Positions 1,786 to 32,689 of a stretch of 64,000 nucleotides of DNA are shown in pieces. Origin of the DNA: Neoarius graeffei (lineage: Eukaryota; Chordata; Actinopteri; Siluriformes; Ariidae); the NCBI RefSeq assembly GCF_027579695.1, contig NC_083569.1, forward strand, positions 72,178,149-72,242,148, written 5' to 3'. Every line of letters starts with the position of its first letter. Position 1 is the first letter of the stretch. The notes under the pieces were generated by a model. It searched no databases. It worked only from the letters and a program-made list of their open reading frames with translations, and had not been told where the DNA came from. Position numbers and translations under genes: made by a program.

Positions 1786-3705
1786 GAAGCTTTTATTTAT
1801 TTATTTTATTTAACCCTTGTTTAACCAGGAAAGGTCCCGTTGAGTCACAGTGACTCTTCTTCCAGGGTGTCCTGGCCAAGTGGCAGCAAGTTAAAAGTTA
1901 AAAAACACAAGGACAGAGGACAACACTACCAAAACACTAAAGACTAAATCAGACTACAAAGCACACAAAACAGTGGAATATGTGCTGTAACTAAACATAT
2001 AACATACACTAAATACACCAAGTCAAAGGAACACAACTAAAACAAGACAAATCTCATAAACATAACAAAAACAATTGACAGTACAGCCAAGAACACTAAA
2101 GACAAGAGACTGCAAGAAGACAAGACTCACATAAATTCTAAGATAAAACACAAACTAAACAACAATAAAAGGATTTAAAAAAAACACATAGACACATGGG
2201 CACCATATTTAAAAGCAATGGCACTGCTCTGTAAGAGCTGATTTTAAAAGATTTTTAAAAGTATTAACAGAAGGAAGTGTCTCTAGGTGTAGTGTGTTCT
2301 GAAGTTCGTTCCAAACGTATGGTGCATAGAAGGAAAAAGAGGTCTTGCCCAGTTCAGTCCTTTTTGAGGGTGTGTATCTTATAATATCTTATTTGTAGAC
2401 CTTGTACTATAAATACTAGTGTGATAAGAAAGCAGATTTGAGATGTACTGTGGTAATTTACCCATTAATGCTTTCAAAGTAAAAATCAACAAGTGAAACT
2501 TTCTCCTGAGAGAGAGAGAGGACCATTGAACCATTTCATATAGCAAGCAGTGGTGAGTCCTATTTGCTGTTCCTGGGATAAAATGCAAGGCAGAATGATA
2601 TAAAACATCCAATTTTTTCAACAGCAATTGTGAGGAATGCATATAAATCATATCACCATAGTCTAATACTAATAAGAAGGTGCTCTCTACCAACCTTTTT
2701 CTTGCTTTGTATGGAAAACACTTTCTTTGTCTGAAATAAAATCCTAATTTGGGTCTGAGTTTTTTTTTTTAAGAGACACTCAATATGTGTACTAAACGAC
2801 AGTTTATCATCCAACCATATTCCTAGGTATTTATAGGAGGATACTTTTTCTAACTGTGTTCCATTCGTAGTACAAATAGTGTCATTACAAGATGTGTGTG
2901 AACGTGTGAAGACCATGAATTTAGTTTTTTTGGCATTTAGCACCAACTTAAGTCCTACAAGGGAATTTTGTACCTTGTTAAAAGCAGACTGTAAGTAGTT
3001 CACAGCCTCCTGCACTGATGAAGCAAAAGTGTATAATATTGTGTCGTCTGCATAAAGATGTACTTTTGTGGGACTTAGTCCCGCACCCAAGTTATTTCTC
3101 ATCTCATTATCTGTAGCCGCTTTATCCTGTTCTACAGGGTCGCAGGCAAGCTGGAGCCTATCCCAGCTGACTACGGGCGAAAGGCGGGGTACACCCTGGA
3201 CAAGTCGCCAGGTCATCACAGGGCTGACACATAGACACAGACAACCATTCACACTCACATTCACACCTACGGTCAATTTAGAGTCACCAGTTAACCTAAC
3301 CTGCATGTCTTTGGGGGAAACCGGAGCACTCGGAGGAAACCCACGCGGACAACATGCAAACTCTGCACAGAAAGGCCCTCGCCGGCCACGGGGCTCGAAC
3401 CCAGACCTTCTTGCTGTGAGGCGACAGCGCTAACCACTACACCACCGTGCCGCCCCCCCCCAAGTTATTTATATAGATAGAAAACAAAATGGGGCCTAGA
3501 CTTGATCCTTAGGGCACACCCATTTTTACCTCTAAAGAGGATGAGGTGCAGTTATCAACAGTTACACACTGAGTTCTACCACTCAAATAGTTAGAGAACC
3601 ACTTAATAACAGAAGGGCTGAAACCTATACTTTTCAATCTGTTCAAAAGAAGATCATGACAAACAGTATCAAACGCTTTAGACAAATCGCTTTAGACAAG
3701 CTCAC
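1786..3705 (-). pseudogene. 5'-truncated non-LTR retrotransposon (CR1/L2-like), reverse transcriptase relic
   Basis: On the minus strand, 3700-3470 reads through reverse transcriptase motifs (DLSKAFDTV, then a GVPQGS-type block with a stop, then GPILFSIYINNLG). After a SINE interruption it resumes at ~3085 with the YADD catalytic box and YKYLGIWLDDKLSF. A region at 2690-2380 (LDYGDMIY, THHCLLYEMVQW) is typical of the C-terminus of CR1/L2-type LINEs. The 3' end near 1790 is a TTTA-type tail after an AACCAGG motif. Stops and frame changes show it is dead. The clade is inferred from motif style, so Rex1 or a relative is possible. Confidence 0.75.
3098..3458 (-). mobile_element. Mermaid/DANA-type tRNA-derived SINE, full length, inside the LINE
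   Basis: Read on the minus strand it has the tRNA-like head (GTGGTGTAGTGGTTAGCGC as A box, GGTTCGAGCC as B box), the body shared with all copies here, and a short ATGAGATGAG-type tail. It is flanked by CCCAAGTTATTT at 3086-3097 and 3459-3470, a 12-bp TSD. It interrupts the LINE reverse transcriptase just upstream of the YADD box, so it is the younger insertion. Confidence 0.93.
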
Positions 3706-30456: not shown

Positions 30457-30763
30457 TATTTCACGAAAATCACTTCTTCTCTCTCAATTCCTCACCAATT
30501 TTTATTCTTTTTGGCAGGAAGGTAGATCTGCCTGGGGTGCATATAGCTTTTACCCACATTTGCATAATTGCAATTAATAATGAAGATATGGAGTAATTAA
30601 GCCCTAACGAGTAGTTTCCACACAAATCACTTCTTCTCCCTCAATTCTTCACCGATTTTGATTCTTAATGGAATGAAGGTAGGGGTACCTAGGGTGCATA
30701 TAACTCCTACCCAAATTTGCTTAATTACAGTTATTAATGAAGTTATGGACTAATTAAGCCATT
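30457..30763. repeat. Two-unit tandem repeat, ~160-bp period
   Basis: The first unit (AATCACTTCTTCTCTCTCAA ... GGAGTAATTAAGCC) repeats once as AATCACTTCTTCTCCCTCAA ... GGACTAATTAAGCC, with moderate divergence. Both include a GGGTGCATATA box. It is non-coding and resembles a dispersed fish repeat. It abuts the TIR element at 30797. Confidence 0.75.
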
Positions 30764-30872
30764 TTGGATTTGGATTTGAGCTGAGCTGGTTGAGAATTCT
30801 TGGGTTTCAGTCACGTGACTTTTCTTAGTGATTTTACTTCTGGTAAAACAGCTGGTGGCCTAGCAAACCAAA

Positions 30873-31426
30873 ATGGCTGCCGTAGTGCAAACAACTAGCG
30901 ATAACTTATCAGAGTATGGTCATAATCTAGAAGCCACTGCTCGCTTTAGATATATTCAGAAGATTGCTATGTGCAATGGAATCGACCCCTACAGTCTGGG
31001 AAAGGATTTGTCATATGATCTCGAAAACCACCCTTCAGTCGAGTTCCCCGACATCTCGAACTATCTGGTGTTGCAGACGTCCTTCTACACCGCAAAACAG
31101 ATGAAAGCGTGGAAGAGTATGGAGGCTTACAACTTTTTTGTATGTGGCTGGGTAAAGGACCTCGCTATCAAGTCACTGCCGAATGAATCCTGTATTGTTT
31201 TTGCCCGTGTAAATGTTTTTTTTTTTAAGCTTTTCGTTCACGTCTTAACAACGAAGCGCTGCAAGTTGAAGTGTAAACAACAACAGTTTGCTTGATTCTC
31301 CCTTGTGTTGGCCCTTATCTCTCCGGTAAATCATTCACAAAGATCATCAGAAACCCCTTTAAAGACCCGGATCTTAGTTAAACAAGCTGGAGAAGTGATC
31401 ACGGCGCATTGTAACTGTATGGCTGG
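30873..31426 (+). pseudogene. 5' exons of a SWIM zinc-finger/YqaJ-type protein
   Basis: Exon 1, 30873-31208, starts at MAAVVQTTSDN with good ATG context and contains FPDISNYLVL, YTAKQMKAWKSMEAYNFFV, CGWVKDLAIK and IVFAR, then a donor GTAAAT. Exon 2, 31326-31426, reads [20 protein letters not shown] then AHCNCMAG and ends at a donor (GG|GTACGA). HCNCMAG is the first half of a SWIM finger (C-x-C-xn-C-x-H). In fish proteins of this type LGExCSH follows, then a lambda-exonuclease-like YqaJ domain; both are absent. The exon 2 acceptor reads CG instead of AG, so splicing is probably dead. Family assignment is from memory of the motif string. Confidence 0.66.
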
Positions 31427-31580
31427 GTACGAATTTTGTCACGACCTTCATGAATATGTAAACAAAGAAACAGCTGGGGACTTTTGCGCTTCGTGACTAA
31501 AAAAAGTACTGTAAAATAATGACACATAGCAAGAAAAGTACTTGGAGAACACTAACGCCATAGCTGAGAGGGATACAAAC

Positions 31581-31797
31581 CTTTCACCAAGTGATCACTG
31601 CAAACTCGAGCATGCTTCGACTCGGCTCCCTTCGATTTCAGTGAGAGGTTCGAAAGCCACCTTTCTCGATGTCTTTTTGTGAAATCCTGTGTTCGTTCAC
31701 CCTTTTTTATTAGTTCACGGGGAACCCTGAAGAAACTTTTATCAGTTTCATGGTTTGATCGATTCGAACAACCTAAAACAACACAAGCGTAAGGCAT
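31581..31797 (-). pseudogene. First exon encoding a complete THAP zinc finger
   Basis: The start at 31797 (AAAAATGCC) gives 72 residues: MPYACVVLGCSNRSN with the C-x4-C pair, FFRVP, RERWLSNL, then ARVCSDHLVKG with the C-x2-H pair. All four ligands of the C2CH THAP finger are thus present in one exon, followed by a donor (AAAG|GTTTGT). THAP fingers bind DNA and occur in P-element and Kolobok-type transposases as well as host factors. Here the context is a transposon end. Nothing downstream survives. An upstream in-frame Met five codons earlier (MVALK) is less likely. Confidence 0.72.
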
Positions 31798-31918
31798 TTT
31801 TAATGCGACCAAGGCACCTTCTCAATACAAACGCTTTGTCAACTGAGCTTTGGTAGACCACCAGCTAAAGTTCTGAATAACTAATTAGGCGGATATGACG
31901 TCATGTGAAACCCAAGAA

Positions 31919-32689
31919 AAGAACTGCGCGAGATGGCCTACTTTAGATCGTCCCTTCTGGACTAGATGGTTCTTTCATTGACGGTCTCGTTGTTTGTTTG
32001 CTTTAAGATGGCCATGTTCTGCCTCACTCTTTCTTGTATTCATGACAGACTTTAATGCCAACCACAACATTGCATGACTGGCCTTGACCTCTACCTGTAT
32101 GTGTTATGAAAAATGACCACAATAGTGTGTGATTATTTCACCTTACCGTATTTTACTTTCCTTTACTGACTTCACCTGGCCTTGCTTTTCACAAGTGCTA
32201 ATTAAATTCAGTTAGATCTGGCTGGTCGTTTACATGCATGTGTGTGCAATGATGTATCTGTACATTACCAGTTTATGAATTTCTGAATTTGACATTCTGA
32301 AAGTGCCATTCTGGCCTTTAGTGCCCTTATGTAACCTGTTATATATTTTTTGAGTGCCACATTATGTGTTATGTGCTATCCATTAGCACGGTATAAATTG
32401 CTATGAGATGAATAGATAACAGTCAGGATGCTTTTAGGATTAATGGTGACATTGGTGACAGTATGCTGAGATCACTGAGCAGAAAAAGGCCATCTGTAGA
32501 CACAGATTTCCCAGCAGAGCTTTCTGAATAGGTGACATCAGTGCTGACAGGTTAGGAACAGCGCCAGCTGGATAAATAAACCTTACGGGAATGATGTTCC
32601 ATTGTCTAATTTATTTTTCCTTTATTACATAATGCTTCTGGCTGATAATACGGGGGAAATCTGACATTTAAAAAGTCTTTACATCATAC
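31919..32689. other. No recognisable feature
   Basis: Possibly single-copy DNA; no exon or repeat that I recognise. Confidence 0.4.

Follow-up and report, generated by a model that had tools for sequence, protein, structure and literature searches.

A high-copy 1.12-kb element in Neoarius graeffei with 5' exons of a THAP transposase gene and a SWIM/YqaJ-type gene, most probably a deletion derivative of ISL2EU

The stretch of DNA analysed here (the window; 64,000 nucleotides, G000:C1:72178149-72242148, from a genome of 2.34 Gb in 38 contigs) holds one copy of a 1.12-kb element bounded by terminal inverted repeats (TIRs). This copy is almost certainly a non-autonomous, deletion-derived member of ISL2EU (PHIS superfamily), whose ancestor would have carried a transposase gene and a SWIM/YqaJ exonuclease gene in convergent orientation. 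The two ends of the element carry inward-reading 5' exons of two genes, SWIM/YqaJ-type on the left and THAP on the right, as the first-pass annotation had stated and as profile and tblastn matches confirmed (Table 1).

Table 1. Features of the element in the window
Feature	Position	Strand	Basis
Whole non-autonomous element	30798..31917	.	Ends common to genomic copies; empty-site comparison of copy L007
Left degenerate TIR, starts TCTTGGGTTTCAGTCACGTGAC, inner limit approximate	30798..30872	+	End comparison, copies
Exon 1 of SWIM/YqaJ-type gene, 112 codons, open in window copy	30873..31208	+	tblastn to upstream exons of YqaJ loci
Exon 2, first part: HSQ block and first half of SWIM-like finger (HCNCMAG)	31326..~31427	+	Homology to exons of YqaJ loci
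Deletion junction (position within this range approximate) and putative leftover transposase-gene intron, assigned to neither gene	31428..31580	.	Lies between both exons
THAP exon, 5' exon of transposase gene	31581..31797	-	PF05485; tblastn to THAP exons of L069 and L070
Right degenerate TIR, starts TCTTGGGTTTCACATGACGTCA, inner limit approximate	31840..31917	-	End comparison, copies

A TIR element had initially been placed at 30797-31918; the element itself is real, and its limits were corrected from the shared ends of its copies. The boundaries are settled because copies elsewhere begin and end at the same place, and the ends coincide in 28 flanked loci (L001-L028), save where an end is damaged, as on the left of L014. 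Two end types, TTGCTGGGTTTCA and TTCTTGGGTTTCA, occur among the copies; the window copy has TTCTTGGGTTTCA, and the TIR of this element type starts T(GC/CT)TGGG. Within the window copy, 13 exact bases are common to both ends (score 26). The top-scoring of 500 shuffles equalled this value, and among up to 1000 random pairs of stretches from the window at least 10 scored as high or higher, so that the TIR of a single copy proves little. The majority ends of 31 aligned copies showed a degenerate TIR of ~75 bp with a score of 66; the highest score among 2000 shuffles was 60. The matching degenerate TIRs proposed from the window copy were upheld, and their similarity did not disappear in the multi-copy alignment. 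After removal of the outer 20 bases, the score was reached by 95 of the 2000 shuffles, and the inner part is accordingly weakly supported. Directly to the left of the element, at 30459-30760, a 157-bp unit occurs twice in tandem, its two copies being 82-83% alike.

The copy number of the element in the genome is large. A DNA search with 30797-31918 returned 41 rows, namely the window itself, 39 places at 88-92% identity and one short fragment at 82%; the 39 places are not all full-length, and the counts are to be read as at least these numbers, since 40 were scored among 5191 first-look candidates. The mean pairwise identity across 31 aligned rows was 91.3% (88.4-94.8%), and the family average may be lower because these rows were picked for high score and near-full length.

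The copies lie preferentially in sites around AT. In a hand count, 22 of the 28 flanked copies had AT on each side of T...A, mostly with A or T further out; the pattern was missing in L011, L013, L014, L019, L021 and the window copy (L001), which is flanked by AT at 30796-30797 on the left and by AA at 31918-31919 on the right, where most other copies have AT. The flanks of L007 without the element were used as an empty-site query, giving 40 scored matches among 1929 candidates, of which 12 were fetched. Ten of these read GTATATGAGC, with no element and one AT fewer; the empty-site pattern did not capture the remaining two (L091 and L096). The empty sites fit an AT duplication and equally an insertion without duplication of an element with ends TT...AA, the two being indistinguishable because T...A beside AT...AT yields the same empty site. 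L006 and L007, which differ in end type, sit at one and the same position of another abundant repeat; this reflects either independent insertions at a preferred site or a single insertion that was duplicated along with the host repeat and then changed.

The right gene had been described as a complete THAP finger ending at a donor, and this description held: the exon matched PF05485 at E 1.4e-9 (39 bits, cut-off 23.9), and its end at 31581 on the minus strand is followed by the junction AAAG|GTTTGT. Its identity to the THAP exons of two relatives in the same genome, L069 and L070, was 34-37% (tblastn).

The left gene starts with an ATG at 30873. Exon 1 gave no Pfam match above cut-off, and a search of phage records with the left exon found nothing at E 1e-5. 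In tblastn comparisons with YqaJ loci, exon 1 was 31-45% identical to upstream exons, reaching 60% over 20 aa in L073, and exon 2 was 32-53% identical to exons over 32-34 aa (62% over pieces of 16-21 aa). By hand count over the 31 aligned rows, the exon 1 donor was GTAAGT in 22 and the exon 2 acceptor was AG in 26; the window copy has GTAAAT and CG, respectively. Two exon-like blocks, each ending at a donor, had been proposed for this gene. The donor of exon 1 stands, whereas the end of exon 2 is better read as a deletion junction: relatives continue in one frame through CMAGLGE.CSH (32 of the 49 loci L039-L087, many of the other 17 being short or not covering the motif), which argues that the break after HCNCMAG in the window marks an internal deletion rather than a donor. 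Pfam SWIM gave no match at E up to 10 in the L070 and L072 pieces, so the label rests on the motif CxC-x7-CxH of the YqaJ-gene protein, which we take to be SWIM-like.

Relatives with both genes were found in the same genome. Between degenerate TIRs spanning ~4.87 kb, L069 holds THAP (3189-3398, tblastn) and HTH/DDE on the plus strand (HTH_Tnp_4, E 2.8e-10; DDE_Tnp_4, E 3.8e-33) and exon 1, the SWIM-like part and YqaJ (E 3.6e-21) on the minus strand, with in-frame stops. The order of parts in L070 is the same, with THAP (E 3.4e-9), HTH_Tnp_4 and DDE_Tnp_4 on the plus strand and exon 1, SWIM-like and YqaJ-gene pieces on the minus strand, over a span of ~6.5 kb that includes a nested insert, presumably Tc1/mariner-like. 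On the THAP side, the TIRs of L070 (ATAGTTTTCACATGACGTCAC) and of the window element (GGGTTTCACATGACGTCA) are similar, and the TIRs of L069 and L070 start about AGTTTTCAC. Long inverted repeats in L070 were rejected as its TIRs because they lie outside the ends given by comparison with L069. In L071, DDE (plus strand) faces YqaJ (minus strand), accompanied by a PHD-like finger, and no THAP like that of the window was found in the fetched stretch; in L072, a YqaJ gene is followed by a retrotransposon-like stretch, with no DDE_Tnp_4 partner among the matches listed.

Across the genome, 36 of 71 YqaJ matches (some of the 71 being pieces of one gene) lay within 10 kb of a listed DDE_Tnp_4 match. 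Every one of these 36 pairs was convergent, with none divergent or on the same strand. The median centre distance was 1.8 kb, and the chance expectation was 0.0013 DDE_Tnp_4 partners per YqaJ match. The other 35 matches, short pieces among them, had no partner among the best 150 of 1485 DDE_Tnp_4 candidates, and the 1335 unscored candidates may include further partners. The motif D...ExK, which we take to be that of the YqaJ domain, was present in 30 of 49 loci; among the others, many are too short to contain it. One region (G000:C17:1.0-4.6 Mb) holds 9 of the 71 YqaJ matches, six of which are L069-like (L069 itself or 93-96% identical to it) and lie at intervals of 0.40-0.59 Mb, a pattern that repetition of a large element-bearing segment would give. 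The first-pass annotation had expected a parent with a THAP transposase and a SWIM/YqaJ nuclease convergent within one TIR pair; this organization exists in L069 and L070, where the SWIM-like exons lie between the TIRs and not in host genes outside them. A transposon with its own exonuclease was correctly read from a deleted remnant.

A direct autonomous parent of the window family was not found by the YqaJ search, by the search with the L069 YqaJ protein or among the fetched loci. The best match to the SWIM exon of the window was 53% over the full 34 aa, with none above 62% on pieces, in the fetched loci, which are a subset of the YqaJ matches (71 rows for YqaJ and 89 for the L069 YqaJ protein). 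Neither 15 short SWIM-exon stretches (L073-L087) nor the regions upstream of four transposases for which no YqaJ partner was listed (L100-L103) contained a direct parent; in the latter, THAP was present at 24-27% in three and absent from L103.

The ancestor would have been ~5 kb long and bounded by degenerate TIRs. Its transposase gene (THAP, then HTH and DDE exons) would have begun at one end and its SWIM/YqaJ exonuclease gene at the other, the two running toward each other. An internal deletion probably took out the part from the middle of the SWIM exon to the first transposase-gene intron and left both TIRs and both 5' exons. Transposase supplied in trans would then have recognised these ends and spread copies of the deleted form into mostly WATW sites, with the coding remnants as passengers. 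The exonuclease itself may have had a putative role in transposition, perhaps in processing ends or gaps around excision or repair.

A very improbable origin of the SWIM/YqaJ exons is a host gene, a fragment of which was picked up by a THAP transposon belonging to a different superfamily, such as a P element or Kolobok. THAP fingers occur in P and Kolobok transposases too, and the absence of a direct parent among the loci compared would suit such a capture. The invariable convergence of the listed YqaJ and DDE_Tnp_4 pairs speaks against it, as does the exon order and TIR-adjacent position, which is the same in L069 and L070. P elements make 8-bp target duplications and Kolobok TTAA duplications, whereas the sites here lie around AT. 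Host-gene capture and membership of P or Kolobok were rejected on convergence and target sites.

It is extremely improbable that the short element is instead a two-protein unit of its own, whose N-terminal YqaJ-gene product and THAP fragment act as small transposition repressors. The left exon is open in 19 of the 31 aligned rows and the THAP exon in 9, and with CpG sites included, divergence in the left exon is slightly higher at third codon positions (0.056, 0.058 and 0.069 at the first, second and third positions, respectively), which speaks for this reading; the corresponding values for the THAP exon are 0.078, 0.090 and 0.065. Outside CpG, the difference disappears: divergence at the three positions was 0.034, 0.034 and 0.031 in the left exon and 0.042, 0.038 and 0.043 in the THAP exon (31 aligned rows). 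Exon 2, where sites are few, gave 0.022, 0.027 and 0.014. Outside CpG, no selection on the frames of the left or THAP exon was therefore seen in these copies; the SWIM-like finger is, moreover, cut in half. From codon-position divergence and open-frame counts, the element seems to have spread as a non-coding passenger.

As for the protein encoded by the complete exonuclease gene, a motif search found a PHD-like finger at the C-terminal end in 19 of 49 loci, including L041, L051, L052, L055/L072, L056, L061-L063, L066, L067/L071 and L068 (paired labels denote the same place). The finger in L071 matched PF23011 at 28.6 bits (cut-off 27), and that in L070 gave a weak match to PF00628 (E 0.092), below cut-off. 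We consider it rather doubtful, if conceivable, that the ISL2EU exonuclease is a compound reader-nuclease, with an N-terminal block, a SWIM-like finger, a lambda-exonuclease-type D...ExK domain and a C-terminal PHD-like finger; were this so, the transposon might use chromatin state to guide its nuclease. In an animal-type genome, YqaJ domains can be transposon genes, and YqaJ-type domains are listed among endogenous viral elements in PMC7826175.

Among known systems, PIF/Harbinger shares a DDE transposase of the same superfamily and a two-gene make-up, and differs in a Myb/SANT second gene and a TWA duplication (PMC4482050). Membership was rejected on the second gene, which is YqaJ-type here by exon homology and convergent pairs. 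Spy inserts into an AT-rich target without duplication, the other reading allowed by the empty sites, and differs in its single gene and AAATTT target (PMC4482050). ISL2EU (Han et al. 2015, PMC4482050), of the PHIS superfamily, has a transposase with DDE, HTH and THAP and a second gene with a YqaJ exonuclease domain, whose part in transposition is there called unknown; its target duplication is AT within A|AT|T, its TIRs measure 6-259 bp and usually begin GG, and it was described from 14 animal species, with 17 of 25 families already in RepBase. A 2022 fish survey (PMC9179366) gives the same two genes, the transposase there having HTH or THAP, and reports transcription; a limited literature search on ISL2EU in catfish gave nothing related.

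The present element differs from the published ISL2EU in that the window copy is a 1.12-kb deletion derivative and in its TIR start, T(GC/CT)TGGG; neither the window family nor L069 and L070 begin with GG, which as a usual feature is no strict criterion (PMC4482050). The SWIM-like and PHD-like parts of the YqaJ protein, not mentioned in the accessible parts of PMC4482050 and PMC9179366, are the only details that our limited literature search did not find in print. The likeness lies in the sites around AT, in the size of L069 (~4.9 kb, against a published mean of ~4840 bp; PMC4482050) and in the two genes: the window has THAP and is linked to HTH and DDE, which it lacks, through relatives with THAP, HTH_Tnp_4 and DDE_Tnp_4, and it has, by homology, the 5' exons alone of an exonuclease gene whose YqaJ domain is found in the relatives. 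The convergent transposase and exonuclease architecture is not new, being that of the published ISL2EU description, in print since 2015 or before.
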